This document shows positions 6,601-61,411 of a DNA stretch of 64,000 nucleotides, piece after piece. The position numbers were made by a program, and so were the translations under genes. The stretch's first letter is position 1. Each line of letters begins with the position of its first letter. The notes beneath the pieces were generated by a model. The model saw nothing but the letters and a program-made list of their open reading frames with translations, did no database searches and was not told where the DNA came from. Source of the DNA: Veillonella dispar (GTDB lineage: Bacteria; Bacillota; Negativicutes; Veillonellales; Veillonellaceae); assembly GCF_900637515.1 (NCBI RefSeq), contig NZ_LR134375.1, positions 1,013,952-1,077,951 of the forward strand, given 5' to 3'.

Positions 6601-7703
6601 ATGTTAAAACTAATACGTATGAATTTGGTGGAATAAAAGTAAATGATCTAGGGGGTTATGATGAATTTAATCGTGCCATTTTTACTGAGGTCGGTACTGG
6701 TAATTTAGTATATGGTATAAATAAATATGGAGTAACCTTATATAGAGGTTCCGATGGTTCACCAAATTGGCATCTTGTTATACCAGAAAATAATTTTGCA
6801 AAAATAGGAAAGCTTGATGGAACTTCATTTGAACGTTTAAATATTACAACTGGAGATTTAGATATGCTGAGGGATCCAGGCTCTACAGCTATTTTTGATC
6901 CTGTAAATTCACGTATAATAAATAGTAATACAGGAAACCCTCTATCTAATATTGGGTATAAAAATTTTAAAAATAATATTAGTTTAGATACTATATCTAA
7001 AAATGATTTGGTCAATCTTCAGTGGGATAACGATGGTGTTACTGTTAAGGTTAAGGGTAAAGATTCTACTACTGATACAATTATTTTTGAAAATATGAGC
7101 TCAATGGGATATAAAAATAGTCAAACTGTTTTAGATGGAATACGTAGTGGTGCTATTACTCCAGGTAAACCAAAATTTACCAGAGAGCCTAAGTTTGATT
7201 TAGGCTTATCTTCGGTGAAATTAAATGATGGTCCTACAGAAGCTTTTAAAAATTGGAAAGGGATAACTGCTCAAGTAGGCGTAGATTTTCCTGCAACTGA
7301 GATTAATATGAGTGCATGGTCCGGAAATTCTGCATGGAGGGATACTAAAATGTATTTTGCTAGAATTAATATTGATACATTTTTAAGAGTAAATAAAAAA
7401 GAAGTCTCTATGGGAAGTAAAGGACGTGCTAATATAGGTGAATTAGATTTGAAAAAATCTTTTGATATTGATCGTTTTAAAGTAAATCTTGAAGGGCGTA
7501 TTGGTTATGGTGCTGGTGCTGGAGTGGAAGGTGGAATCCAATATTCTGATGGTAAGCTAGGTGCTTATTCAAGTTTGCAAAGACCAAAGCTGGGATTGAA
7601 TGGATCAGCCGGTGTTGATATTGAAATTAATGGTATCAATACTAAATTATTAGAAATAGATAAAAATTTAAATCATGATGATAAAAATAAAACAAAAAAG
7701 TAA
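603..7703 (+). CDS. TpsA/CdiA-like filamentous haemagglutinin exoprotein with C-terminal toxin module
   Basis: A 2366-residue exoprotein, the likely substrate of the TpsB upstream. Residues 1-32 form a signal peptide ending AYA-A. The TPS secretion domain covers about residues 33-290 and carries NPNGI and NTDRAVLTTG. A charged coiled-coil-like stretch lies near 379-446. It is followed by haemagglutinin-type beta-helix repeats (GNDVN, NINAGRDIN and similar) to about residue 1700. A pretoxin segment with FAKDAFEQLHYW and NPAVAQWLSASLGALVNHG ends at GATEAQ near residues 1876-1881. The last roughly 480 residues are unlike the rest and are the presumed effector module, glycine-rich near the end. 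The pretoxin segment is repeated in the decayed module at 8.7 kb, where similarity stops just after GATEAQ, which marks the module boundary. CdiA-like function is inferred from architecture; I do not recognise the toxin fold. The start has a GAGAGAG ribosome site. Confidence 0.85.
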   Translation: MKEKRLQYKIAVWLTMGLMIVDPLVVPFAYAANPIEVDKNAPHERQATVGQAANGITLVNVAGPSAGGVSRNDYTNFNVPQNGVILNNSYQMANTKLGGYVPGNANMMRGSANVIVNEVTSHNPTEMKGFIEVAGRKASVVVANPNGITVDGGGFINTDRAVLTTGKTEYDSKGNLNSYRVEQGRVSINGNGLNAKDANSLQILTEATNVNAGVWANTIETRTGKNTIEANTLDTQKIGDSSNVGLDVAAIGGMYANSITMKGTNTGLGVNVKGVVSSTQASSITSDGKIIVDGGVTSNGNTTLAGQSIAIHNSGVVQGDVSTTVNSQDTLNNSGLINSGNTTAIKAKSVDNHEGGRIYGDTVAIDANTVINHTNSEIEQRYHKAGKDLEKAKNDLDAEWNADITKYKTKTELEAHRQRIKELTKTYDEAQENVTAIKKELDTHKSGVIAGRNHVDINTDTINNTGKGFIYSGGTMDLTAKQGISNTGATIKAVKSIELDTPVVNNENVALGVKRISDGITKNPDKLKVTHPHHKLEGQVFDKSEFPYADYKSGYGTPHVKPVKTAEDEAYNKEMDKRENRVNEFTIIRTETEHTHKEVTNDDPGVISSGGDVVTTGILHNDNSKVISGGTVHAKGSIQNISDSISDKTFITGTTQESYTTKVDKSHHIGRKKKRRKWRSEVYMTPTITETNLKPIGTVQEHAEDTLSKATIAKVNDSLDPYGLDGGKGKESHTIDGLSLPTEALYQIHPDITANALIETDSAFTNRKNFLSSQYMIDALANDPERRLKRLGDGFYEQQLINEQIVSATGKQYLEGYTDNEAEYKALLEAGIAFGKAFKLAPGIALSKEQMESITTDMVWLETKTVVVEGKAQQVLYPKVYLAKQPAKSVDAMGGIISGKAIVSNTNADILNQGIMTADTIVLGAHDVQNTGRIDGRKVNIKASQDVTNTGNIHGDKQVNINAGRDINVGAHVDRLEHHDIVSRQGTIGVAKDGDLVLSAKRDVNLKGAIVHTKDNSKATIEAGNNINLTTESLSSKKDMTVNSDNYNRTDRRTELGTAILSDGHVNLHAENDVNIRNGIVNSEHGVTSVEAGNDVNITNGKSYSRDEYGLKYKEKSLLSRTTNIIRTDHEHTGVLSSTIGGDTINVKANRNVSVTGSNILGTKDVSVSAGNDVRTDSGEETQRDDVYQYSKKSGLMGAGIGFTIGSKKVTDTLEGNSKTNVNTLIGSANGKISIDANNKAHLTSTDIIGKDDIEVSASDITLDGKHDTIASKQEHEEKQSGLTVSLGGSIASALTTARGLQRKANSRDDKRLGTLESLEAGKELKKGYSKIQEYKNFTPDFVRDEAQKSIASGILKEQKVKEIDSLLQNNKLTDKTRKALEKERKRLAEEASYEKAKGYNDLKDINGDQKQYKENKRAKKDGLANIHVSVGSSKSRSESRLDSSKYAGGHIVSDNGIKLVTKPTTADSGDIVAIGETIRGESVELDASRNLSLQAGTNTTTITDKYDSKGWSIGANLSVNGGGLLGIDANYNKANENGTTVKTTHSGTVVQGNKVITNSGADTAIVGSKVYGDSIQSQIGGNLTIKSLQDSETYRGEKKNVGFSISTNGTKLGGVSAEYSKGKMTSDYTSVTEQAGLYAGAEGFDITTKGNTILEGAVIDSKAKADKNKLSTNSLTVKDIKNKAEYKSSNTGLSYTSVSGFKNLSQAGKDAVYNSLGLLPKLLPDSEKSAESTTKSVISNGTITTGSSNIDINKISKDTKNSLNKLDTIFDKKKVEERQELARLFAKDAFEQLHYWEPKTKEGKAAKALAHAVVAETSARIAGNPKGSGFYAGATNEALIGEIHKIAKSNPAVAQWLSASLGALVNHGLGKSSITGATEAQYGTKWNYAGALFRVGVGTSKIAVKTASGETITEFIPYVGNPSAFDQVTTKPVSFSDRVSDQSTPMDDVIPPGSDLTESSNLSSPVVLKSEDYKIYNLPPDIDNQTGQISVWDNERQEYVKTNTYEFGGIKVNDLGGYDEFNRAIFTEVGTGNLVYGINKYGVTLYRGSDGSPNWHLVIPENNFAKIGKLDGTSFERLNITTGDLDMLRDPGSTAIFDPVNSRIINSNTGNPLSNIGYKNFKNNISLDTISKNDLVNLQWDNDGVTVKVKGKDSTTDTIIFENMSSMGYKNSQTVLDGIRSGAITPGKPKFTREPKFDLGLSSVKLNDGPTEAFKNWKGITAQVGVDFPATEINMSAWSGNSAWRDTKMYFARINIDTFLRVNKKEVSMGSKGRANIGELDLKKSFDIDRFKVNLEGRIGYGAGAGVEGGIQYSDGKLGAYSSLQRPKLGLNGSAGVDIEINGINTKLLEIDKNLNHDDKNKTKK

Positions 7704-7715
7704 GAGGTATGAGAA

Positions 7716-8174
7716 TTGACTGTCAAAAATAAATTATTAGATTTTTTAAATGATCAGCGATTTCGTTGGATATCTTCGTTAATTTTATTGCTTGGTTTTT
7801 TTATTGGAAGCTTACAAGATATAAATTATGAGTTCTCATTTTCGGTTTTAGAAGGAATGTTTCCCGCTTTTTTATATTCCTGCGTTATGTTGGGACCTTT
7901 ATATAAAAGAAGAAAACTATATCGATTTATATATAAGCGAGCGTTAAATATATGCGGTTCAAAAACAAAAGTATTTCTTTATATTTTTTTGGGCCTGCAT
8001 GGTAAATTACTGGGAATTAATGTCACACATAAAAGTAAATTTAAATGGGCGATTATAATTATTAGTTATATAGTTTTTGTAGGCTGGACAATACAAAGTG
8101 AGATGCCATTTGTTTTAAAGTTAGTTATTGTAGTTATAGCGACATATAGATTATTAGTTTCTATAAACTCCTAA
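7716..8174 (+). CDS. Multi-pass membrane protein, candidate immunity protein (CdiI position)
   Basis: A 152-residue protein starting at TTG, 12 bases after the TpsA stop, with an AGAGG ribosome site at 7702-7706. The nearby ATG at 7709 is in another frame and closes after seven codons, so TTG is the credible start. It has at least four hydrophobic segments (roughly residues 18-38, 42-66, 106-126 and 129-148) separated by basic loops such as KRRKLYRFIYKR. In CDI systems the gene immediately after cdiA encodes immunity, and integral-membrane immunity proteins usually protect against toxins acting at the inner membrane. Position and topology therefore suggest an immunity protein against a membrane-active toxin. 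No family is recognised, so this rests on context alone. Confidence 0.6.
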   Translation: MTVKNKLLDFLNDQRFRWISSLILLLGFFIGSLQDINYEFSFSVLEGMFPAFLYSCVMLGPLYKRRKLYRFIYKRALNICGSKTKVFLYIFLGLHGKLLGINVTHKSKFKWAIIIISYIVFVGWTIQSEMPFVLKLVIVVIATYRLLVSINS

Positions 8175-8249
8175 TGAAATAGATGATATTCAGTAGATTG
8201 TAATATTTCTAGATAGTGTCAATAATTTAGTGTAAACATCTTTTTATTC

Positions 8250-8462
8250 TCAATTACCAAACATATTTTGTAACTGGCTAAATGTTACACCAAATTCATG
8301 ATGTACTTTACCAAAGAATTTAGTATTATACTCAGTAGTAAATGAATATACAAAAGTATCTAATAATTCAATTGACGATATGTAGCCAACAACGTTGAAA
8401 CCGTGCTCTTGGATATATTTCCTAACAAGCTTATTGCAATCCTTAAAATTCATTACCGACAA
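8250..8462 (-). CDS. Small hypothetical protein, probably a gene remnant
   Basis: A 70-residue reading frame on the reverse strand, opening at TTG 8462, with an in-frame ATG at 8453. I recognise no family. It contains the readable stretches KLVRKYIQEHGFNVVGYISS and KFFGKVHHEFGVTFSQLQNM. There is no convincing ribosome site, and the frame directly upstream on the same strand (8443-8613) is a broken piece of another protein. It may be the tail of a decayed reverse-strand gene and not a functional one. It sits between the candidate immunity gene and insertion-sequence debris. Confidence 0.3.
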   Translation of the reverse strand: MSVMNFKDCNKLVRKYIQEHGFNVVGYISSIELLDTFVYSFTTEYNTKFFGKVHHEFGVTFSQLQNMFGN

Positions 8463-8613
8463 AAAGGAGAATGTCCTCTAGACCTTTTTGTTTTGCATGA
8501 TCTAATAGCCCTTTGTAGACTAATATTCTTTCATTAGGATGTATACCATAATCAACGACATGGTTATCTCTTTATGGTGTAATACCAATTAAAACATGAA
8601 GAGCCTCTCTTTG
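8443..8613 (-). pseudogene. Transposase-like remnant (possibly IS256/mutator family)
   Basis: Reading the reverse strand from 8613, the frame gives QREALHVLIGITP, a stop codon, then further residues ending GLEDILLFVG. IS256-type mutator transposases carry a similar ALH-x-LIGI-TPEG stretch followed by GLEEVLLFV, so this looks like a fragment of one. There is an internal stop at the TP position and no start codon, and the similarity fades after LLFVG. Nothing else of the element is visible. The family call comes from memory of the motif and is tentative. Confidence 0.35.
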
Positions 8614-8617
8614 ATAT

Positions 8618-8696
8618 GTACCCCCTTTACTGGATAATCAGTAAAGGGGGTACTTTCATGAGATATAGTTATAAATTTAAAAAGAAAGCTATTGAG
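8618..8696 (+). mobile_element. Left-end remnant of an IS3-family-like insertion sequence
   Basis: A perfect 15-base inverted repeat (GTACCCCCTTTACTG at 8618-8632 and its complement at 8639-8653, spacer 6) is followed at 8658 by ATG and the frame MRYSYKFKKKAIEL. That resembles the start of IS3-group OrfA transposases (typically RYSYEFK followed by a VELY-like stretch). After 12-14 codons the transposase frame runs into sequence homologous to the CdiA-like pretoxin region, so only the first few dozen bases of the element remain. The junction lies within about 8690-8697. The element or a deletion at its edge appears to have removed the 5' part of the orphan toxin module. Confidence 0.55.
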
Positions 8697-9654
8697 TTAT
8701 CTGCCTAAATTATTACTAGATTCAAGTAAATCTTCCAAAAGCACTACGAAGTCTGATATTGCTAATGGTACAATAAAAACACAGACTTCTAATATTGATA
8801 TTGATAAAATTTCACGTGATACGAAGTATAGTCTAAATAAACTAGATACGATTTCTGATAAGAAAAAAGTAGAATAACGTCAAGAATTGGCTCGGCTATT
8901 TGCAAAAGATGCATTTGAACAACTTCACTACTGGCAACCTAAAACTAAAAAAGAGAAAATTTCAAAAGCATTTGCTCATGCTAAAGTAGTAGAATCTTCT
9001 GCCCGTATTGCAGGAAATCCAGCTGGAAGTGGATTTTATGCAGGTTTTAGTAATGAGGCGTTGATTGGTGAAATTCAAAAAATTGCCAAATCTAATCCGG
9101 CTGTAGCACAATGGTTAAGTGCAAGTTTAGGGGCTCTAGTAAATCATGGGCTTGGTAAATCTCAAATTATTGGTGCAACTGAAGCACAAAATGCAACAAA
9201 AAATAATGCATATGGTGTAATGAAAAAGAATACAGAACTCGAACCTTGGGATTATTATATTATCGATCTTTATGGTAACGTATATAAAAGAACTAATACG
9301 GACGATTCATTAGTATCGCCATCAGTTGTTCGTAATGGTATCGTAACAACTGTGGTTAAACAAAATCCTGCTAAAGGTTATCAATCTGATGGCCAAGAAG
9401 TATTTGTCTATCCAGATGGTCCATATGTTAATATTGATGAGCCATTGGGAAAAGTGCATGTAGGATAAGCACATTTACTAACTAATACAAGTTCTTCATG
9501 GGATAATCCTAGTGTAAATAATCCTGCAGTAGTTGAAGAAGCACCAAGAGTTATAGATGCATACCTGAAGAATCCACCAGTAGAATTTATAGAGTTTATA
9601 GTAATAGCTCAGAACCAGTATTTACAGGAGAATATCAAGGAAAGAGGAATTTAA
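8695..9654 (+). pseudogene. Orphan cdiA-CT module: pretoxin repeat plus different toxin, decayed
   Basis: From 8695 this repeats the pretoxin region of the large exoprotein: PKLLLDS, NIDIDKISRDTK, then FAKDAFEQLHYW and NPAVAQWLSASLGALVNHG, ending GATEAQ. Beyond that point the sequence is unrelated to the first module (PWDYYIIDLYGNVYKRTN and DGQEVFVYPDGPYVNI). It has no secretion domain and no start of its own; the 5' side abuts insertion-sequence debris. An in-frame TAA at 8875-8877 replaces the GAA codon of the parent, and a second TAA at 9466-9468 is followed by 61 more in-frame codons to a stop at 9652. It is the textbook arrangement of a displaced CDI toxin tip that can recombine onto the main gene, here apparently no longer intact. 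A frame restarting at 8887 could in principle still be translated. Confidence 0.75.
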
Positions 9655-10191
9655 TGTCAGATGCTACTGCTGTTTATAATCTAGATCATAAAGCTTGATA
9701 TGCTTGTGGGTATGTTATTTATCGAAATGCAGAAACTGACTCTATTATTCGTAAGCAAAGTTTAGAACAAAAAAAGAGTCAGTAATGGAGGTTATTAATA
9801 ATCCAGACACTGGCATTGGTATAATGTCTGATACTGTGAGTTATATGACAGACTATAAAGGTCTTGAATACGGTGGAACTGCAGTTACTTTTGGCCAATC
9901 TGTACCTAAGTTTTTGGATAATAACTCTCGATTTGAGAGTTTTGAAGGTAAATATTTAGCAGGGGTTAGTGATTTTGGAAGTGAAACGATAAAAGCAAGG
10001 TTAAGCCTTAGTACTGCAAATTTATTAGCTCAGGTAAGCAAGTTATGAGTCCATATCCTAATAATTTAAGTATGGCTCAAGAAGTATTGTTTGCTATTTC
10101 TGGTGGTTTGATAGTTAATCAGACATTTTCACCAACTATTAATATTACTAATGAAGAAATTAAAAATAAAATCAAAGATATTGAAAAATGA
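9654..10191 (+). pseudogene. Degenerate continuation of the orphan toxin module
   Basis: Protein-like reading continues after 9654 but changes frame repeatedly. One frame starts at ATG 9654, is broken by TGA, and runs to a stop near 9784. A second, 9785-10048 (87 residues), contains DTVSYMTDYKGLEYGGTAV. A third, starting at ATG 10045 (48 residues), contains LFAISGGLIVNQTF and ends IKNKIKDIEK at 10191. The consecutive shifts over a region of coding character look like the C-terminal half of the orphan toxin after frameshifts. Alternatively 9785-10048 and 10045-10191 are independent small genes, which I think less likely. No toxin family is recognised. Confidence 0.5.
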
Positions 10192-19217: not shown

Positions 19218-20444
19218 ATGACTAGATATGATGATACTATTTATATTGCAGGCTTACAAAGTTTATATAATGTAGGAGCCACACATGTACGGCGTTTCAT
19301 AGAGGATTTTGGGTCGCCTTATGATGCTTGGGATGCCGTTAAGAAGGTTGAAAATTTAAAGCCTTATACACATATTCCTAACGCTGATAAACGTGCTATA
19401 GCATCATCGGCTAAGGATGAAAAGTTAGATTATATAATTCATAAAATAGACGAATATAAGATGGATGTTACTACCTTTTTAGATAAAGATTTTCCATCTA
19501 TTTTGAACCATATTTATAATCCACCAGCTATATTATTTATGCGAGGCAATCGAGCTTTATTAGATAAAAGACTGAACCGTATTGCTATTGTAGGGGCACG
19601 GCGCTGCTCATTGTATGGACGGAATGTGGCGAGAATGCTTGGTAAAGAGCTCGGTAAATACAGCACTATTATAGTCAGTGGAGGTGCACGAGGTATTGAT
19701 ACACATGGTCATGAAGGACTATTAGCTAGCCTAGGGTATGGTATTGTGGTCATGGGTTGTGGCTTAGATATAGTATATCCACGAGAGAATACAAAATTAT
19801 TTGACCGAATCTTACAAAACAATGGTTTGCTTGTATCTGAATATCCACCTGGTACGCCACCATCTGCTAAACATTTCCCCGCTCGAAATCGTATCATTAG
19901 TGGCCTTAGTAGAGGTGTAATCGTAGTAGAGGCAAAAGGAAGTAGTGGTTCATTGATTACAGCGGATATGGCTGTTAGTGAAGGTCGAGATGTATTTGTA
20001 TTGCCTTGTAATTTATTAGACCATACAGCAGATGGCAATAAATTCCTCATGCGTAATGGAGCCTTTGTATTAACTGGTTATGAGGACATCGTTAAGGAAT
20101 ATCATTTAACCTTACGAGATATGTATAGTACTAAAGAAAAACTTTCACCACCAAATAAAAGAGATACAATGGGCGTAAAAAATAGTAGTCAAATGGTGAA
20201 TCATGGTCAGGGTGTTGATACACAAGGGCTCTCTATGTTAAGCTTTAGTTTGGATAAGAGTTTAATATTGAGTGAAATACCTCATGATCGTTGTATCACG
20301 GTTAGTGATATTTTGAAAGCGACCTCTATTCCATTACAACAACTGCAGCCCTTATTACTAGAGTTAGAAATGGAAGGGGCTATAGAACATCAACCGCCGA
20401 GAGGCTATATTAATATGACTAGGAGTGATATACTTGTCCATTAA
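19218..20444 (+). CDS. dprA: DNA processing protein DprA
   Basis: A 408-residue DprA, which binds imported single-stranded DNA and loads RecA. The Rossmann-like core is intact: IVGARRCSLYGR, VSGGARGIDTHGH, GCGLDIVYP, FPARNRIISGLS and GSLITADMA. A helix-hairpin-like N-terminal region (IYIAGLQSLYNVGATHVRRF) and a C-terminal winged helix (TVSDILKATSIPLQQLQPLL) flank it, with a linker of low conservation at about 310-345. It is the second gene in this window linked to natural transformation and overlaps the topA start. Confidence 0.95.
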   Translation: MTRYDDTIYIAGLQSLYNVGATHVRRFIEDFGSPYDAWDAVKKVENLKPYTHIPNADKRAIASSAKDEKLDYIIHKIDEYKMDVTTFLDKDFPSILNHIYNPPAILFMRGNRALLDKRLNRIAIVGARRCSLYGRNVARMLGKELGKYSTIIVSGGARGIDTHGHEGLLASLGYGIVVMGCGLDIVYPRENTKLFDRILQNNGLLVSEYPPGTPPSAKHFPARNRIISGLSRGVIVVEAKGSSGSLITADMAVSEGRDVFVLPCNLLDHTADGNKFLMRNGAFVLTGYEDIVKEYHLTLRDMYSTKEKLSPPNKRDTMGVKNSSQMVNHGQGVDTQGLSMLSFSLDKSLILSEIPHDRCITVSDILKATSIPLQQLQPLLLELEMEGAIEHQPPRGYINMTRSDILVH

Positions 20445-22833
20445 ACGATCAATCGTTATTGGCGAGCCAAAAGTAGCTAGTACTAGTAAAGATACTAAAA
20501 AGAAAAGTACTAAGAAAGAGAGTACTACGATAAAGCGTAAGGTTGCTAAAGAAGCCCTTACTCCCATGGGAATTGTACGAGATAAATCTGTACTACAAAC
20601 GTCCGTGCCACCAGAGCAACGGGAACCACGCGTATATAATCCTGATGGCAAAGTATTGGTTATCGTAGAGTCTCCTGCTAAATCTAAAACAATTGAAAAA
20701 TTCTTAGGCCCTAACTATGTTGTAAAGGCGAGTATGGGCCACTTACGAGATTTGCCAAAGTCTCAAATGGGCATCGATATCGAACATGATTTCACGCCCC
20801 GTTATAGCAATTTGGTAACTCGTAAAAAGGTTATTGATGAACTCGTTTCCTACGCCGATGAAAGTAGTGCCGTATTGCTCGCAACTGACCCTGACCGCGA
20901 AGGGGAAGCTATTTCTTGGCATTTAGCGTACATTCTAAATGTAGATCCAACGTCTACATGTCGTATTACGTTCAATGAGATTACTAAAAATGCCGTAGCA
21001 GAGGCCTTAGAATCTCCACGTACTATCGATATGAACATGGTTGATGCCCAACAAGCACGCCGTGTATTAGACCGTATCGTAGGCTATAAATTGAGTCCTT
21101 TATTATGGAAAAAGGTTTGTAAAGGTCTCAGTGCAGGTCGTGTGCAATCCGTTGCAGTTCGACTTATCTGTGAAAGAGAGCGAGAAATTCAAGCTTTCGT
21201 GCCACAAGAATACTGGACTATTGAAGGCAATTTTGAAACGCCTAAAAAAGAGGCTTTCACAGCAGAATTGACTCATATTAAAGGTGAGAAAATCGATATT
21301 ACTACTGAAAGTGAAGCGCAAGCCGTAGTAGATGCTATTGGCGGAGCCGATGCAGTAGTGACAAATATTGAAAAGCGCAAACGTTCTCGTAAAGCGGCAC
21401 CTCCCTTTACAACGTCTACGTTGCAACAGGATGGTGTTCGTAAGTTGAACTTTGGTGCAAAGCGTACCATGATGATTGCTCAACATCTTTACGAAGGTCT
21501 TGAAATCGGTTCCTATGGTCACGTAGGTTTGATTACGTACATGCGTACAGACTCTACGCGTATCTCTAAAGAGATGCAGGTCATGGCTAAGGATTATATT
21601 ATTCATAACTATGGTGAAGATTATTATCCTTCTAAACCTAATATGTACGGTGCAAAAGGTTCTGCTCAAGATGCCCATGAAGCAATTCGCCCTACATCTT
21701 TAGAGTTAACACCTAAAATGGTAGAGCCCTTCTTGAGTCGTGATGAGCTTAAGTTATATACATTGATTTGGAATCGTTTTATGGCGAGCCAAATGGCACC
21801 ACAACAAAATGAATCTACAACCATTGAGTTGACGGTTCATGATGATTACACATTTAAAGCGACAGGATCTCGCGTAATCTTCCCAGGTTTTAGTGCTGTC
21901 TATGAAGATGCGAAAAAAGAGGATGCTCCTCAATTGCCTGCGCTTAAAAAGAATGATGCAGCTCATACGGTAGAGGTATTGCCTGAACAACATTTCACGC
22001 AACCACCTCCACGTTACTCTGAGGCGAGCCTCATCAAAACATTGGAAGAGCTCGGTATTGGTCGTCCAAGTACTTACGCTCCAATTCTAGATACAATCGT
22101 AAGCCGTAACTATGTAGAAAATACGAATAAACAATTCGTACCTACAGAGTTAGGCTTTGTAGTGGTAGATTTCTTGATAGCGTACTTTGAAAAAATCATC
22201 AATACAGGTTTTACTCGTGATCTAGAAGAAGAACTCGATGCTATTGCATCTGGTAAGGATACATATCTAAAGGTATTGTCTGATTTCTATGAAGTATTCG
22301 CTAAAGAGCTAGAAGATGCGAGCGATGTAGATCGCATTGAAATTGCATCTATGGAAAGTGACGAAACGTGCGATCTCTGTCATAGTCCAATGGTATATAA
22401 ATTTGGTCGCTATGGTAAGTTCCTTGCATGTTCTAACTTCCCAGAATGTAAAAACACTAAACCTATTACGGTAGGGACAGGTGTAACTTGCCCTAAATGT
22501 AAAGAAGGGGAAATCGTAGAACGTAAGTCTCGTCGAGGACGTTTGTTCTATGGTTGTAACCGTTATCCACAATGTGATTTCACATTATGGGATAAACCAA
22601 CCCATGAATTCTGTGATACATGTGGTTCTATTATGGTTGAAAAGACATATAAAAATGGGACGACTAAGAAATTCTGTTCCAATGAAGCATGTCCAACTAG
22701 ACCTCCAAAGAAAACTAGAAAGAAAAAGAGCGAAGCTAGTGAAGAAACTGTAAAAGAATCTAAAGAAACTAAAGAGTCTAAGAATTCTAAAAAATCTAGC
22801 AAAGCTAAAAAAGAGGAAACAACAGTTGAATAA
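20434..22833 (+). CDS. topA: DNA topoisomerase I
   Basis: A 799-residue type IA topoisomerase that relaxes negative supercoils. The TOPRIM domain begins [14 protein letters not shown] near residue 73, and the active-site tyrosine is in [12 protein letters not shown]. Three C-terminal four-cysteine zinc modules follow (CDLC..CSNFPEC, CPKC..CNRYPQC, CDTC..CSNEAC). A Lys/Glu/Ser-rich tail of about 45 residues and a charged 65-residue N-terminal extension are extra. I prefer TTG 20434, which has AGGAG eight bases before it, over GTG 20425. The start lies inside the end of dprA and the stop inside the start of trmFO, so expression is coupled. Confidence 0.94.
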
Positions 22834-24142
22834 TAAAAATGTTATTGTTATTGGCGCAGGGCTAGCTGGCTCTGAGGCGGCTTGGCAACTCGCTAATCGT
22901 GGTATTCATGTAGACTTATATGAAATGCGCCCTGTGAAGAGTTCCCCTGCGCACCAAACAGATCAGTTTGCAGAGCTTGTATGTAGTAACTCCTTACGCG
23001 CTGGCAATATTGAAAATGCAGTAGGTCTTTTAAAAGAAGAGATGCGTCGTTTAGGCTCCATTATTATGGAATGTGCCGATGCGACAGCTGTACCTGCCGG
23101 TGGTGCCTTAGCCGTTGATCGTCACTTGTTCAGTGAAATGGTGACTGAAAAGGTAAAAGGTCACCCTAATATTACAGTGCATCACGAAGAGGTAACCGAG
23201 ATTCCTGCTGAAGGTACTGTTATTTTTGCTTCTGGTCCCCTTACATCTGAAGCATTAGGGGATAAGATTAAAGAATTAACTGGTGAAACAGGCTTTTACT
23301 TCTACGATGCAGCAGCACCTATTGTGACAGCAGAATCTTTGAATTACGATAAAGTATTTGCCGCTTCCCGTTACGATAAGGGCGACGCAGATTATCTTAA
23401 CTGTCCTATGACAGAGGAAGAGTACAAAGCATTTTGGCATGAGCTTACAACAGCAGAAGCAGTACAACCAAAGGATTTTGAAAAAGAAATCTATTTCGAA
23501 GGTTGTATGCCTGTAGAAATTATGGCTAGCCGTGGTGAAGATACATTGCGCTATGGACCATTAAAACCAGTAGGTTTGGTGGATAAACGTACCAATGAGG
23601 AGTCTTATGCAGTAGTTCAATTGCGTAAGGAAAATAAGGAAGGTACCATGTTTAACTTGGTAGGCTTCCAAACTCACTTAAAGTGGGGCGAGCAAAAACG
23701 TGTATTTGGTATGATTCCAGGCCTTGAAAACGCAGAATTCGTTCGTTATGGTGTTATGCATCGTAATACGTATATCAACTCACCTGAGTTGTTGAACCAT
23801 GCATTCCAACTAAAAAAAGAACCGCGTTTATTCTTTGCGGGCCAAATGACAGGTGTAGAAGGGTATTTAGAATCTGCTGCTAGTGGTCTTATGGTAGGCT
23901 TACAAGTGGATCGTTATTTAGACGACCGTTCATTTATAGACTTCCCTAAAACTACAGCTATCGGTTCTCTTAGCCATTATGTTTCTAACTATGAAGGTTC
24001 CAACTTCCAACCTATGAATGTCAACTTTGGCATTATGGATCCATGGCCACAAAAAATCCGCAAGAAAAAAGAGAAAAATGCACTCATTGCTAATCGTGCA
24101 TTAGAAGAACTAGATGCATTAAAAGCTAAAGAAAATTTATAA
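22826..24142 (+). CDS. trmFO: Methylenetetrahydrofolate-tRNA-(uracil-5-)-methyltransferase TrmFO
   Basis: A 438-residue flavoprotein that makes the T54 methyl group of tRNA with methylenetetrahydrofolate as carbon donor. The FAD-binding start [21 protein letters not shown] and the conserved [11 protein letters not shown] and [16 protein letters not shown] blocks identify it. The start is TTG 22826, overlapping the topA stop by eight bases. In Bacillus-type chromosomes xerC, hslVU and codY follow; here a terminator and the reverse-strand lgt follow instead. Confidence 0.94.
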
Positions 24143-55998: not shown

Positions 55999-56148
55999 CT
56001 AAACTCCAAAAATCCAGTTAACGAATACACGAAGGATACTAAGGCCTACAATAATTTCAGCTAAGAATCTTAAGGAACCTTCCATACCATTACCTAAATG
56101 TTTTAAACTGCCAATTTTGGCTTTACTTACGATGTCACACCAGCACAT
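55999..56148 (-). CDS. 49-residue peptide with hydrophobic C-terminus
   Basis: A short reverse-strand gene, ATG at 56148 and TAG at 55999-56001, with a strong GGAGG ribosome site. The peptide begins MCWCDIVSKAKIGSLKHLG and ends with an amphipathic to hydrophobic helix (FLAEIIVGLSILRVFVNWIF). Good ribosome site, normal codons and a shared terminator 25 bases downstream make it a credible gene although short. The basic half followed by a membrane-active helix could be a small membrane protein or a bacteriocin-like peptide; no family is recognised and no immunity or export gene is beside it. Confidence 0.6.
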   Translation of the reverse strand: MCWCDIVSKAKIGSLKHLGNGMEGSLRFLAEIIVGLSILRVFVNWIFGV

Positions 56149-56716
56149 ATAATACCTCCGTGAGAGTTAATATGAGTAAATTACATAATTTATATGACTA
56201 TTTTACAACCTTATATCAAAAATTTCAATATGTATTTAAAATTAAATAATAATAATTCTACACATACATCTATAATAATGAAATTGTAGTTACCATAAAC
56301 CTACATAAAATAAGGAATTATAAGCATCTAGTTAGTTTGATATATATTAAGGTTATGTAAGACTTATATAAATATATATAGCTAAATGATGTTATATAAA
56401 AAGATAGTTGTATTAGATACTAAACATTATTTAAGAGCTTATATGTATATACACCTAAGGTTAATGATTAATAAGCTTAGAAAACATAATTTAAATATTT
56501 ACATATATTAATTTTTATATAGTGAGATTAACTAGGTTACATAAATTAAATTAGAATTATAAGGTTAGATAAATTGAGTTAAATATTGTGTAATAGACTG
56601 GATTACATAATATGAAACGATAGGATCTGTTGATTGAGTAATTTAAAGGCTTATTTGGGTTGAAATGTAAATAAACTAGCTTATAGATATATAGGTTAGT
56701 TTTTTATTTGTTTTTA
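56149..56716. other. Gene-free AT-rich region at the strand switch
   Basis: About 570 bases with no supported reading frame, extremely AT-rich. On the forward strand G exceeds C strongly (63 G to 27 C in 56281-56700, counted by hand). AACTA and TAGTT arms before a T-run near 56682-56715 could form a weak forward terminator, which would mean a short transcript exists here. It leads up to the palindrome at 56717. Confidence 0.6.
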
Positions 56717-56753
56717 AATTACTTCCGATAACGATATATTATCGGAAGTAATT
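56717..56753. repeat. Perfect 15+7+15 palindrome, candidate dif/Xer-type recombination site
   Basis: AATTACTTCCGATAA at 56717-56731 and its exact complement at 56739-56753 flank CGATATA. No T-run follows on either strand, so it is not a usual terminator. The inner part resembles the Bacillus dif site as I remember it (ACTTCC at the left, ATATATTAT in the middle). It lies where gene direction switches and 2.3 kb from a tyrosine recombinase gene. Confidence 0.5.
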
Positions 56754-56762
56754 ATATAAAGA

Positions 56763-56787
56763 AAATTGGGCCTATATGGCCCAATCC
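56763..56787 (-). terminator. Terminator after the PAP2 gene
   Basis: On the reverse strand ATTGGGCC / GGCCCAAT is followed by TTTCTTT, 33 bases after the PAP2 stop. Confidence 0.75.
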
Positions 56788-56819
56788 CTTATATTATATA
56801 GTTTTTTAGCTATTTAAGC

Positions 56820-57437
56820 TTATTTACGTTTAAATGTGTATGGTTCGTATTCTACATCATTATGACGGTTAGTCCACCAATTCCAACCGATTCTTGCAAG
56901 CTTCCATGCAATAAAGCCTACGATGATTCCCAATACTAAGCCTGTTAATACATCTGTTGGATAATGTACAAATAGATATACTCTAGAAAATGCTACTACT
57001 AATGACCCAAGTAATGCTATAATTCCCAAATATCGCTTCTGAGGCGCTATTTGACTCAAGCCTAGGTAAATGGTCATGGCAGATGCAAATGAACCAAAAC
57101 TATGGCCTGACGGGAATGAATAACTATTTGCTTTTGGTAATGCAGACTCTAATGGTACTGTTACATTAGGAAAATCTACAAATGGCCTTAATCGAGCTAC
57201 ATGTGGTTTTAAACCTTGGTCACCAATGATAAATACAAATCCTAATGCAATTATTATCGCAACGCCTAATACACGATATTTTTTCTGTAACATCAATAAT
57301 AAGGCAATGACAATCCATAAGGCACCGCTGCCAGTAATTTTTGAAATAAATGCCATAATTGGTGTTAAAAAACTATATACAAGATGGTCATGTACATAGA
57401 AGATCAAGGAGTGATCAAATTGTAAGATTGTGTCCAT
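56820..57437 (-). CDS. PAP2-family membrane phosphatase
   Basis: A 205-residue inner-membrane phosphatase with five to six hydrophobic helices. The three phosphatase motifs are intact: KPHVARLRP, FPSGHSFGSF, and SRVYLFVHYPTDVL. Such enzymes dephosphorylate undecaprenyl pyrophosphate or phosphatidic-acid-like lipids on the periplasmic side; the size and motif order fit the BcrC/YbjG group best. The C-terminal tail is basic and soluble (NRHNDVEYEPYTFKRK). It stands alone on the reverse strand. Confidence 0.88.
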   Translation of the reverse strand: MDTILQFDHSLIFYVHDHLVYSFLTPIMAFISKITGSGALWIVIALLLMLQKKYRVLGVAIIIALGFVFIIGDQGLKPHVARLRPFVDFPNVTVPLESALPKANSYSFPSGHSFGSFASAMTIYLGLSQIAPQKRYLGIIALLGSLVVAFSRVYLFVHYPTDVLTGLVLGIIVGFIAWKLARIGWNWWTNRHNDVEYEPYTFKRK

Positions 57438-57632
57438 AGTTTCCTCTTCTATTTTACTAAATGATAATTGCTGAGAATGATTGAGAATAGATTATATCCT
57501 CAATATTCTGTATTGGATTTCCATATACTTTGTAATATGTATATATTGGTTTCTCAATTACATCCAAATAATAGCCTAAACTATTTATACCTCATGGTCA
57601 ATAGTTTAGGCTATATTTAATAAAATCTTTAA

Positions 57633-58976
57633 TTATGGTTTCTTTTTATCTGATTTTTTAGTTGAACCTTCAGGTGGCATTGTTATGATCGTATCTACTG
57701 GGTCATATACAGATTCAAAGGAATCAGTTTGTGTAACCCAGTTACCATATGTTATGGTTCTATACGTATTCATTGTTAAGCCTACATGCCCCTCTTGTAC
57801 TTCTTTTTCTTTTAAAGATGGATCTACGCGTGTAATTGTCTTATTTGGTATTTCACTACGATCACCAACTGAAATAGATACATTTTTAGGCTTGTCTTGA
57901 GCAGTACCTATAATATAGATGGTTAGTGTACCATGATTCATCACACTGAGAATATAAATGGATTGTTGGTATGGATTTCTAAACTTAAAGTCTAAATAGC
58001 CCCATGCTACTGTAGCATCACGACCAGCTTGAATATATCCAACAGGTTCAAAGTGAGGTGTACGTTCTACAATATTCATGCCAGATAATAAGGCTGTATT
58101 AAAGATGGTAGAACTAACTTGGCAAATGCCACCACCAATACCTGGAACTAATTTGCCATCAATCATTACCGGTGCATCATCATAGCCAGCCTCAGCAGTA
58201 CGCTCGCCTACAACATCGTTAAAGGAGAATACTGCACCAGGTTTAATCAATGTACCATTGATTTTATCAGATGCGAGTTGAATGTTATGTGTTCTGCTTT
58301 CATTATTTGGATCAAAATCTGTACTAAAGGATGCTAGAACGGTATTTAATGGTTTTAAATCAGAATCAGTAACCTTAATAGTATTTTTTGTGGTAAATAC
58401 CATAGATAGAGATGTGATGCTTTCTCCAGATTGTAATTGATCCTTAAGGTTTTGTAAGGTTGCATCAATATCAATGCGTTTACCTTCTTTAGCAGGATGG
58501 AATACAACTTGACCATTCTCAATGGTTAGATATGCATCATGTCCTGGCGTATCAATTGATTTGGCAAGTTCTGTAAGGTAAGTTTTGCTTTTTACCTCGT
58601 CTAGCTTATATTGAGGTTGAAAATGTTGTCCATAATATAAGGCATTAAATCTATGTGAAAGCAAGGTCCACCAATCATCTTCATACCCATATGTAGAAAT
58701 AGCTTTTACTACAGCCTCAGTATCTACTTGAATACCTAAATCATGATACGTAGCCTGTTGTTTTTTATTATTCCCCATATCAATGGATATAGTCTGTTGT
58801 GGTATTTTACTATTTAGTTCTTGTATTCGATCTTGTAATTCACCCTTTGGTGTATTAGATAGATCTGTATCATTGTAAAATACACCATACGATGTATTTT
58901 CTGTTGGGATGTATGAGCAGCCGCTCGTACTCAGCAGGACAAGCATAGTCCCTAATATTATATGTTTTTTACTCAT
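57633..58976 (-). CDS. VanW-family lipoprotein
   Basis: A 447-residue exported protein. The N-terminus has a lipobox, LLSTSGCSY, so Lgt should lipidate Cys20. A putative peptidoglycan-binding region (about 40-200) precedes the VanW domain with GAVFSFNDVVGERTAEAGY, GGGICQVSSTIFNTALLSG and VAWGYLDFKFRNP. A G5-like segment follows (TRVDPSLKEKEVQEGHVG). VanW proteins occur with glycopeptide resistance but also widely in ordinary cell-wall loci; no van genes are nearby, so resistance should not be inferred. Transcription probably stands alone. Confidence 0.87.
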   Translation of the reverse strand: MSKKHIILGTMLVLLSTSGCSYIPTENTSYGVFYNDTDLSNTPKGELQDRIQELNSKIPQQTISIDMGNNKKQQATYHDLGIQVDTEAVVKAISTYGYEDDWWTLLSHRFNALYYGQHFQPQYKLDEVKSKTYLTELAKSIDTPGHDAYLTIENGQVVFHPAKEGKRIDIDATLQNLKDQLQSGESITSLSMVFTTKNTIKVTDSDLKPLNTVLASFSTDFDPNNESRTHNIQLASDKINGTLIKPGAVFSFNDVVGERTAEAGYDDAPVMIDGKLVPGIGGGICQVSSTIFNTALLSGMNIVERTPHFEPVGYIQAGRDATVAWGYLDFKFRNPYQQSIYILSVMNHGTLTIYIIGTAQDKPKNVSISVGDRSEIPNKTITRVDPSLKEKEVQEGHVGLTMNTYRTITYGNWVTQTDSFESVYDPVDTIITMPPEGSTKKSDKKKP

Positions 58977-59083
58977 TGTATTATAAACTCTCCCAAATTA
59001 GTCATTATATTCTCTAATTATAGCATATAAGTACCTATTCTATGGTACAATTATATTGATATTTTTAGGGGTAAGGGTGAATT

Positions 59084-60094
59084 ATGTCAGAGTCTAAGGA
59101 ACAACAAAAACATTTCTATTTGCGCAATAATGATGCGCTTATGAATAGTACAAAGTTGTCTATGAAAGCCAAGCAAAGTATATTACTATCTAAGGCTGAA
59201 AATACTGTGGATGCTTACGAATCGGATTGGGATGATTTCGTAGATTGGTGTACCTATCAAAAGGTATCTTATTTTCCGGCTACACCAGAAACCATAGTTA
59301 ACTATATTAATGATCTTGCTGATTATGCTAAGGCAAATACAATCTCTCGTCGTATTAGCGCTATATCTGAGAATTATAATGCCTCTGGACATCGGGATAA
59401 TCCATGTATGGCACCAATCGTAAAACAAGCGTTACGAGGGATTAGACGTTTAAAAGGTACATTCCAACAAGGTAAGACACCAGTTCTATTAGAAGATATC
59501 GAAGATATTCTAGATTGTATGACTAAACTAGATGTACCTGAATTACAGCTATTACGAGATAAGGCCATTCTTTTAATTGGATTTATGGGTGCTTTTCGTC
59601 GTAGTGAAATTTCAGCTATTACAGTAGAGCATCTACAGTTTTCTCCGCAAGGTGTTGAAATCTTTGTGCCATCCTCAAAAGCGGACCAAGAAGGTCAAGG
59701 TGCTGTGGTAGCCATTCCTCATATACCTGGCTCCCCTTTAGATGCTGTGAAGGCCTTACAACAATGGTTACGTGCTTCTGGTATTTCTGAAGGCCCTATA
59801 TTTAGAGGTTTTACTAAAAATATGTCATTACGTAAAACGGCTATATCCGATAAGATGATTGCAGAAATCGTAAAAAAATATATTTCTCTTATCGGTCTTG
59901 ATCCAACTATGTATGGTGCCCATAGTCTACGTCATGGCTTTGCAACAACTGCTGCAGCTTATGGTGTAGAAGAACGTAATATTATGCGTCAAACACGTCA
60001 TCATAGTGTTAATATGGTTCGTCGTTATATTAATGAAGCGAACAAGTTTGTAGACAATCCTATTTCCACAATTTTTGAAAAGCGATTTAAATAA
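59084..60094 (+). CDS. Tyrosine recombinase (Xer/integrase-like)
   Basis: A 336-residue site-specific recombinase. The N-terminal SAM-like core-binding domain covers about residues 33-120, and the catalytic domain has the full set: Arg172 in GAFRRSEI, a Lys in SSKADQEG, His280 and Arg283 in HSLRHGF, His306/307 in RHHS, and Tyr315 in RRYIN. It is longer than XerC/D (about 300) and has an N-terminal extension. No phage genes, tRNA gene or attachment repeats are near, so a phage integrase is unlikely. The palindrome at 56717 may be its target. A terminator at 60131 follows. Confidence 0.87.
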   Translation: MSESKEQQKHFYLRNNDALMNSTKLSMKAKQSILLSKAENTVDAYESDWDDFVDWCTYQKVSYFPATPETIVNYINDLADYAKANTISRRISAISENYNASGHRDNPCMAPIVKQALRGIRRLKGTFQQGKTPVLLEDIEDILDCMTKLDVPELQLLRDKAILLIGFMGAFRRSEISAITVEHLQFSPQGVEIFVPSSKADQEGQGAVVAIPHIPGSPLDAVKALQQWLRASGISEGPIFRGFTKNMSLRKTAISDKMIAEIVKKYISLIGLDPTMYGAHSLRHGFATTAAAYGVEERNIMRQTRHHSVNMVRRYINEANKFVDNPISTIFEKRFK

Positions 60095-60189: not shown

Positions 60190-60498
60190 TTAGTTTTGAG
60201 CCACATAGTCCAAAGCTCTAACTGGACTATTAGATTTATGTGCTGGTACCTTTAATACTGTACCAGGTACAAGTGTACCAGAATCACTGATGTTGTTAAG
60301 TTCTTTCATGGCATATACCATTTCTCGAACATCCATATCTTTATGAGCTGTACGAGCTGCAATATCCCACATGGTATCGCCTGCTTGTACCTTTACTTCA
60401 CGTACTGCATGTGTATTTGTATCTGTTACAGGATTTGTCATATTATAACCAAATAATACTGTTAAACACATTCCTAGCATCATTAATATATTTTTCAT
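60190..60498 (-). CDS. LysM-domain membrane-anchored protein, YneA/SosA-like
   Basis: A 102-residue protein with an N-terminal membrane helix (ILMMLGMCLTVLFGYNM) and one LysM domain (VKVQAGDTMWDIAARTAHKD followed by ELNNISDSGTLVPGTVLKVP). I chose ATG 60498 with GAGGT upstream; the longer frame starting at 60612 crosses the promoter and LexA boxes. It is divergent from lexA and its promoter spacer is filled by a LexA box. In Bacillus and Staphylococcus the gene divergent from lexA encodes YneA or SosA, small membrane proteins (YneA with a LysM domain) that halt division during SOS. The same role is likely here by size, domain and place. Confidence 0.82.
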   Translation of the reverse strand: MKNILMMLGMCLTVLFGYNMTNPVTDTNTHAVREVKVQAGDTMWDIAARTAHKDMDVREMVYAMKELNNISDSGTLVPGTVLKVPAHKSNSPVRALDYVAQN

Positions 60499-60534
60499 AT
60501 CATACCTCACATTTATATCGAACATAATATCTGA

Positions 60535-60547
60535 GAACATTTGTTTG
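60535..60547 (+). promoter_or_regulatory. LexA box a
   Basis: GAACATTTGTTTG, close to the Firmicute LexA consensus (GAAC, four bases, GTTC/T). It lies downstream of the LysM gene -10, in the region of its transcript start. Confidence 0.75.
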
Positions 60548-60558
60548 TTTACATGAAT

Positions 60559-60588
60559 ATGATAGCACACAAACAAATGTTCGGTCAA
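60559..60588 (-). promoter_or_regulatory. Promoter of the LysM gene
   Basis: On the reverse strand TTGACC (60588-60583) and TATCAT (60564-60559) are 18 bases apart. LexA box b fills the spacer. Confidence 0.7.
60570..60582 (-). promoter_or_regulatory. LexA box b
   Basis: Read on the reverse strand this is GAACATTTGTTTG, identical to box a over 13 bases. It sits between the -35 and -10 of the LysM promoter. Confidence 0.78.
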
Positions 60589-60596
60589 GACTTTTA

Positions 60597-60609
60597 GAAC
60601 AAATGTTTG
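60597..60609 (+). promoter_or_regulatory. LexA box c
   Basis: GAACAAATGTTTG, the same pattern with the central bases changed. It overlaps the first bases of the lexA -35 element. Confidence 0.75.
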
Positions 60610-60635
60610 CAAAAACTTTTAAAATTGCCTATAAT
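60607..60635 (+). promoter_or_regulatory. Promoter of lexA
   Basis: TTGCAA (60607-60612) and TATAAT (60630-60635) are separated by 17 bases. LexA box c overlaps the -35, fitting autorepression. Confidence 0.75.
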
Positions 60636-60739
60636 AAGTATGTAAGTTAGTAATTATCTTACTTTTTTATTATATAGTATGACATGTGTTATTTTTTACG
60701 CATAAAATATTGACAATATATTGACTTTGGAGGTTCATC

Positions 60740-61411
60740 GTGAGACGCCCTGCTACAGATATTAATACTAAACAGCGCCGTATATTAGATTTTATTAAAG
60801 ACTCATTACATAATGAATATCGTTGTCCTACAGTTCGTGAAATCTGTACACATGTAGGACTTAGTTCTACATCTACTGTACAATCTCATTTGAATGCTCT
60901 TGAAAAGTTTGGTTATATTAAACGAGATCCTAATAAAAACCGTGCTATTACTGTTTTAGAGGATACAAAACCTTCTATTTCTGTAGATGGTAATGAAACT
61001 TCCAGTTCAGATAACTTTGAATTTTTAGGTGCCGGTCTTAAACAAGTACCTCTTATTGGTACTGTTCAAGCTGGTATGCCTATTACTGCTGTAGAAAACT
61101 TAGAGTCTACCCTTACATTGCCTGTTCAATTGACTGGAGATTCTGATTGTTTTTTACTTCGTGTTCAAGGCGAATCTATGATGAATATCGGTATGTATGA
61201 AGGCGATATGCTTATTGTACGTCATCAAAATACAGCTAATAATGGAGACGTTGTAGTGGCTCGTATTGATGATGAAGCTACTGTAAAACGTTTTTATAAA
61301 GAAAATGGACATATTCGTTTACAGCCTGAAAATGATGATTTTGATCCTATTATTGTGGATGACTGTCATATTGAAGGCCTAGTAATCGGTCTTGTACGAG
61401 ATAGAATTTAA
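60740..61411 (+). CDS. lexA: LexA repressor
   Basis: A 223-residue SOS repressor. The winged-helix N-domain has RRILDFIKDSLHNEYRCPTV and GLSSTSTVQSHLNALEKFG. The cleavage site is Ala111-Gly112 in GTVQAGMP, and the catalytic pair is Ser146 (QGESMMN) and Lys183 (ATVKRF). The start is GTG 60740 behind GGAGG. Its promoter overlaps a LexA box. DNA damage through RecA would trigger self-cleavage and release both lexA and the divergent LysM gene. Confidence 0.97.
   Translation: MRRPATDINTKQRRILDFIKDSLHNEYRCPTVREICTHVGLSSTSTVQSHLNALEKFGYIKRDPNKNRAITVLEDTKPSISVDGNETSSSDNFEFLGAGLKQVPLIGTVQAGMPITAVENLESTLTLPVQLTGDSDCFLLRVQGESMMNIGMYEGDMLIVRHQNTANNGDVVVARIDDEATVKRFYKENGHIRLQPENDDFDPIIVDDCHIEGLVIGLVRDRI

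Follow-up and report, generated by a model that had tools for sequence, protein, structure and literature searches.

Most bacteria resolve joined daughter chromosomes with the recombinase pair XerC/XerD. The locus described here raises the question of whether Veillonella achieves this with one recombinase only. It lies in a stretch of 64,000 nucleotides of Veillonella dispar, called the window below, which covers positions 1013952-1077951 of one closed contig (NZ_LR134375.1; 2,116,915 bp, starting with dnaA-dnaN), and it comprises a palindrome and the gene of a tyrosine recombinase, the two lying 2.3 kb apart and flanking two further genes. A first interpretation made from the letters alone (here, the sequence-only reading) had proposed a single-copy, dif-like site at the replication terminus, served by one recombinase encoded nearby. 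Our analysis agrees in these points. We conclude, with a probability of roughly 0.87, that the palindrome and the recombinase, which is Cre-like, form the chromosome-dimer-resolution system of the dif/Xer type in Veillonella.

The site reads AATTACTTCCGATAA-CGATATA-TTATCGGAAGTAATT (the coordinates of this and all other features are collected in Table 1). Its 15-bp arms are perfectly complementary, as had been claimed, and with the 7-bp spacer the inner 11 bp of each arm form a 29-bp core of lox-like architecture, that is, symmetric arms around a short asymmetric spacer. With up to three mismatches allowed, this core occurs once in the whole Veillonella genome, at position 1,070,672. The length of the palindrome alone was rejected as evidence, because about a dozen other perfect palindromes with arms of 12-19 bp are found in the same window, many of them terminator-like. 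What lifts this one beyond chance is its single copy genome-wide, its near-invariance in the family, where a reversed control pattern gave no match, and its placement at the terminus. A likeness of the inner part to the dif site of Bacillus had been pointed out in the sequence-only reading; counted by hand against the B. subtilis sequence ACTTCCTAGAATATATATTATGTAAACT (PMC3025954), 21 of 28 positions are indeed alike, with one gap.

The recombinase gene had been described as complete, and its reading frame of 336 codons is intact. The protein shares 96-97% identity with its counterparts in V. parvula SKV38 and further oral species. Six residues, R172, K199, H280, R283, H306 and Y315, do not vary among 40 relatives and sit on catalytic positions when aligned to Cre; we take their catalytic roles from what is generally held for the tyrosine recombinase family. 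Membership in the XerC, XerD, XerA, XerS and XerH groups was rejected. The XerC and XerD equivalog models TIGR02224 and TIGR02225 gave 51.6 and 54.9 bits (cut-offs 335 and 330) and the XerS model NF003462 gave 32.2 bits (cut-off 267); the score for the XerA model was likewise far under its cut-off. A profile built from the recombinase family matched Cre best with 81-85 bits, ahead of XerD with 51-54 and, weakly, XerH with 26. The fold of the predicted model (mean pLDDT 86) is nearest to Cre (Z 27.3, 294 residues, 2.6 A), followed by XerH (Z 19.8); Foldseek also ranked Cre first, and the structural alignments with Cre show 21-22% identity. Judged by profiles and predicted fold, the recombinase is Cre-like over its full length, above its likeness to Xer proteins. 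Of the original interpretation, the terminus site, the single recombinase and the lack of XerC/XerD stand, whereas the comparison with XerS or XerH is not supported, Cre being the nearer match.

The position of the site on the chromosome was assessed from GC skew, measured genome-wide on sampled stretches. Counted from dnaA, the site stands at 50.6% of the chromosome's circumference. Nearly all samples between 0 and 1.07 Mb have positive skew, the stretch at 960-970 kb being the only exception on this left arm, and skew is negative from 1.08 to 2.02 Mb, so that the sign change falls at the site and no extremum was found elsewhere. Inside the window the cumulative G-C maximum is a plateau (54.7-63.4 kb) with its peak at 60053, and the value at the site is 13 counts under the peak value of 3172. 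The local signs of a switch noticed earlier were reproduced: 36 forward and 5 reverse genes precede the site while 2 forward and 6 reverse genes follow it, and the recount of 63 G and 27 C in 56281-56700 and of 13 G and 19 C in 57481-57600 was exact. In all ten further genomes, including V. parvula and Dialister-, Negativicoccus-, Selenomonas- and Sporomusa-type genomes, skew likewise turns from positive to negative across the site. An FtsK gene with the gamma domain (98.9 bits, in a frame of 924 aa) is present. No KOPS-like motif guiding FtsK is claimed: many G-rich octamers are strongly strand-biased, such as CTGGTGAA (61:1) and TGAAGAGG (54:1), and leading-strand gene bias alone could explain this.

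The palindrome might instead be the operator of the recombinase's own gene, the protein itself doing other work such as plasmid or element resolution. In other genera of the family the site is found about 80-170 bp upstream of the gene, and in several species it stands directly behind the extended -10 element TGATATAAT, so that the gene may also be autoregulated. An operator in place of a recombination site is nevertheless very unlikely. It would need neither a terminus position nor a conserved asymmetric 7-bp spacer, and it would hardly be separated from its gene by two others as in Veillonella. In two Selenomonadaceae-type genomes (G266 and G267) the distance between site and gene reaches 224 kb and 167 kb and skew still flips at the site, which therefore is not merely the operator of the gene; the terminus position tracks the site, not the gene.

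Site and gene are also distributed together. Among 28 genomes of the family, 27 have the recombinase and the identical 27 have the site; the core is present once, with 0-2 mismatches, in 26 of the 28, one further genome has an extra copy with three mismatches and one has none. The latter (G002) was dropped as a case of clean co-loss since lexA is missing there as well; this is probably an assembly gap and uninformative. The extra copy, ACTTCCAATAA TCATATA TTATCGGAAGT, has a phage-type integrase and a primase-like gene in its vicinity (locus L113, contig C44 of G027, 3127-10069) and is possibly part of an element that imitates the site.

For the whole class, 380 Negativicutes-level genomes were surveyed, each treated singly and without regard to relatedness, and the palindrome was searched as arms with any spacer and up to two mismatches. 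The recombinase was detected in 152 genomes, the palindrome arms in 115, and XerD and XerC above cut-off in 119 and 108; reversed control arms gave no match in the 380. Recombinase and palindrome occur together in 109 genomes, the recombinase alone in 43, the palindrome alone in 6 and neither in 222 (p=4e-51), and the corresponding numbers within the large family f24 are 50, 17, 2 and 120 (p=2e-28). In the order to which Veillonella belongs, 58 of 61 genomes encode the recombinase and none of the 61 encodes XerC or XerD. Outside families f1-f5 and f24, two XerC/D-type proteins are encoded in 3 of 25 genomes with the recombinase (all f29, the Sporomusa family) versus 33 of 39 without it (p=8e-9), and where one such protein is retained, it scores as XerD.

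This distribution bears on a second alternative, slightly less probable than the operator, in which recombinase and palindrome are the integrase and att site of a mobile element that came to lie at the terminus by chance. The protein does belong to the tyrosine recombinase family, it has plasmid-borne relatives, and islands do insert at the site. However, a mobile element is hard to reconcile with a single copy in almost all genomes of the order, a tree that follows host groups, a conserved neighbourhood on the lexA side and a position always at the skew switch where tested; besides, the genome offers no other candidate for dimer resolution. An insertion was observed in V. seminalis (G025), where foreign DNA splits the locus exactly within the 29-bp core, as judged against an uninterrupted relative. 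One contig (C5) holds the normal left flank and the core followed by foreign DNA, another (C9) foreign DNA followed by the spacer and right arm of the core and the recombinase, and the homologies of the two halves overlap in exactly the 30-bp core. Judged by these junctions, site-specific integration into the site would be expected to leave just such a footprint.

That a dimer-resolution system with one protein is at work is further suggested by what the genome lacks. Only four Phage_integrase genes are encoded in Veillonella; the other three proteins (281-380 aa) have phage- or island-type neighbours or N-termini and look like prophage or island integrases. Neither XerC nor XerD is among the four, hence there is none that would need an ordinary dif. 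The sequence-only reading had already pointed out that xerC is missing from its frequent place after trmFO, and lgt indeed follows there instead. The arms tell the same from the side of the DNA. All chromosomal sites found have the form 11+7+11, and the inner GATAA...TTATC does not change, while the outer arm differs between lineages (ACTTCC, AGTTCC, GGTTCC, AGTAAC, AATAAC, ACTAGT, ATATAC or ACATCC). Of 25 representative sites, 19 are perfectly palindromic, with 15 distinct left arms, compared with at most eight after shuffling of the right arms. The arms thus vary and yet stay mutually symmetric, as expected if one protein binds both. As a side observation, six genomes of genus g57 (G129, G130, G133, G138, G141, G142) hold a recurrent imperfect variant, CCTTCCGATAA-N7-TTATTGGAAGT, up to three times per genome; it might be the sign of a mobile element that makes use of the system.

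The same data speak to an action of two recombinases, in which the Cre-like protein would take one arm and a second tyrosine recombinase, such as a prophage integrase, the other. XerCD sets a precedent for this and XerD is still present in genomes of sister groups. We regard it as less probable again than chance placement of an element, since the arms are identical and remain so as they change, the other three integrases of the genome belong to unrelated types from phages or islands, and in one Veillonella genome (G018) the Cre-like recombinase is the sole Phage_integrase match. The weakest alternative, an intrinsic transcription terminator or other RNA hairpin, can draw on the intergenic position at the gene-strand switch and on the other terminator-like palindromes in the window, but it has next to no probability, because by eye no T-run follows on either strand, the arms covary symmetrically, and sequence, spacer length and single copy are conserved across genera while the flanks diverge.

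For the dimer-resolution system itself, the following course is proposed. One recombinase monomer would bind each 11-bp arm at the terminus, so that every site would hold two identical monomers. Once sister chromosomes have been joined by an odd number of RecA crossovers, two copies of the site would meet at the septum, probably by means of the FtsK DNA pump, and synapse as a tetramer. The Y315 tyrosines would then cut, and strands would be exchanged over the 7-bp spacer, whose asymmetry would give the site its direction, so that the dimer is converted into two monomers.

The origin of the system may be sought on plasmids. Relatives of the recombinase outside the class are largely plasmid-borne, and a tblastn search returned 2482 plasmid and 12 phage records. 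Palindromes of the same type lie upstream of plasmid relatives in Alicyclobacillus (-50, -884), Protochlamydia (-108), Salinibacter (-956) and Mesobacillus (-63), and versions with a 6-bp spacer in Sporosarcina and Roseomonas. In a quick tree most chromosomal Negativicutes proteins form one clade (support 97) amid plasmid-borne ones, and Cre falls on the recombinase side as opposed to XerD (98 SH-aLRT), on a very long branch. We lean towards the view that an ancestor of the Negativicutes acquired a plasmid-type Cre/lox module for multimer resolution on its chromosome, where the module replaced XerCD in resolving dimers. Steps of such a replacement appear to be visible within the class: XerC and XerD only; both together with the Cre-like protein (Sporomusa); XerD with the Cre-like protein; the Cre-like protein alone (Veillonellales and many Selenomonadaceae); and neither. 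For Veillonellales and many Selenomonadaceae, the best reading of the sequences is that the plasmid-type module became the chromosomal dif/Xer system and that XerC, then XerD, would have been lost. About 120 Selenomonadaceae-level genomes (G193, G217; f24 genera g58, g60, g61, g63, g65, g78) are without recombinase, palindrome and XerD, and in G217, which is 99% complete, there is no Phage_integrase match at all.

Several points weigh against a dimer-resolution system of this kind. Binding, recombination, dependence on FtsK and the biological role are inferred from sequence. In some genomes XerD persists beside the recombinase, and in Sporomusa XerC does as well. Further, 43 genomes have the recombinase without the palindrome at two mismatches; variant palindromes were found upstream of the gene in several of them (G098, G328, G376, G378 and Sporomusa ovata). 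A partial integrase is encoded on the V. seminalis island itself, which may therefore have been inserted without the Cre-like recombinase. For the plasmid origin, the tree relied upon is a quick one in which branches are long.

The surroundings of the two elements are summarized in Table 1. YneA-like gene and lexA beside the recombinase (60190-61411) make up a neighbourhood of the SOS type. The YneA-like protein is a candidate division suppressor and is not counted here as part of the proposed mechanism. The spacing between site and recombinase gene is about 3.7 and 5.5 kb in G017 (L115) and G008 (L116), as against 2.3 kb in most Veillonella, which suggests insertions beside the site. In V. 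montpellierensis (L207 / L121) the asymmetric spacer runs the other way with respect to the recombinase gene, tatatcg for cgatata, unlike in the other Veillonella genomes. By the terminus region, the short open frame MCWCDIVSKAKIGSLKHLGNGMEGSLRFLAEIIVGLSILRVFVNWIFGV (56000-56147, minus strand) would encode a small hydrophobic peptide.

Table 1. Site, recombinase gene and other features discussed, with positions in the window
Feature	Position	Strand	Remarks
Full 15+7+15 palindrome	56717-56753	+	Arms perfectly complementary; flanking AATT/AATT only partly kept (ATT/AAT or ATA/TAT in relatives)
29-bp dif/lox-like core (11+7+11)	56721-56749	+	Single copy; conserved in the family; at the skew switch; insertion in V. 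seminalis
Left arm of core	56721-56731
Spacer CGATATA	56732-56738		7 bp, asymmetric
Right arm of core	56739-56749
PAP2 phosphatase and VanW-like genes	56820-58976	-	Between site and recombinase here, not between them in the family's other genera; not part of the system
Cre-like tyrosine recombinase	59084-60094	+	336 aa, intact; Pfam Phage_integrase and SAM_1 (N-terminal SAM-like) domains
YneA-like LysM protein	60190-60612	-	52.1 bits, under the model cut-off of 60; retained beside the recombinase in V. seminalis (L112)
lexA	60740-61411	+	Conserved neighbour of the recombinase; also adjoins the gene in L112
topA and trmFO	20425-24142	+	Next gene lgt; negative evidence only

Single-recombinase systems of dimer resolution, namely XerS, XerH, archaeal XerA and XerL, are known as scattered exceptions to XerCD. 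The system proposed here would add one that is spread over a clade and occurs in bacteria common in the human mouth and gut (Veillonella, Megasphaera, Dialister, Selenomonas). As its recombinase is closest to Cre, it would bridge plasmid multimer resolution and chromosome segregation. The perfectly symmetric sites, whose outer arms differ by lineage, offer a natural series for the study of recombinase specificity and could yield new Cre/lox-like tools, and in genomes holding both systems the replacement of XerCD is directly testable. For the class the site is a reliable terminus marker, and it is flagged as an insertion point of islands.

In the literature searched, which included few subscription journals and not the supplements of the 2011 dif survey, we found no prior description of chromosome dimer resolution in Negativicutes or of a tyrosine recombinase at the Veillonella terminus; papers naming Veillonella parvula together with XerC had other subjects, judged by title. 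The Veillonella system resembles XerC/XerD-dif in its proposed function, its terminus position and a left arm like that of Bacillus dif (ACTTCC..AA), but two proteins and unlike arms are involved there and neither protein is encoded in Veillonella. XerS/difSL of streptococci and lactococci and XerH/difH of Helicobacter and Campylobacter have a single recombinase encoded beside the terminus site, difSL having imperfect arms and an 11-bp centre (PMC5357621); this 31-bp site differs from the chromosomal Negativicutes sites found, in which the centre is 7 bp. By its published description, XerL/dif of Legionellales is alike in function, with a single recombinase, perfectly symmetric arms of 10-12 bp, a terminus position, a mobile element at dif and a plasmid link in Coxiella (PMC9765430). 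The catalytic Y387 of XerL, however, implies a protein longer than the 336 aa found here, and XerL is reported only in Legionellales. Closest in build is Cre/loxP of phage P1, together with the plasmid-borne Cre-like systems Nigri/nox and Panto/pox: one recombinase, inverted-repeat arms, a short asymmetric spacer and a site beside the gene, with Cre as best profile and fold match over the full length. In P1 about 0.4 kb separate cre from the lox site upstream of it, with a LexA site between the two, which may be compared with lexA beside the Veillonella recombinase. The loxP site is 13+8+13 (PMC4957104), against a core of 11+7+11 in Veillonella, and protein identity is 21-22%. Whereas Cre/lox of P1 resides on a phage-plasmid, the Veillonella system is chromosomal, located at the replication terminus and inherited with the chromosome.

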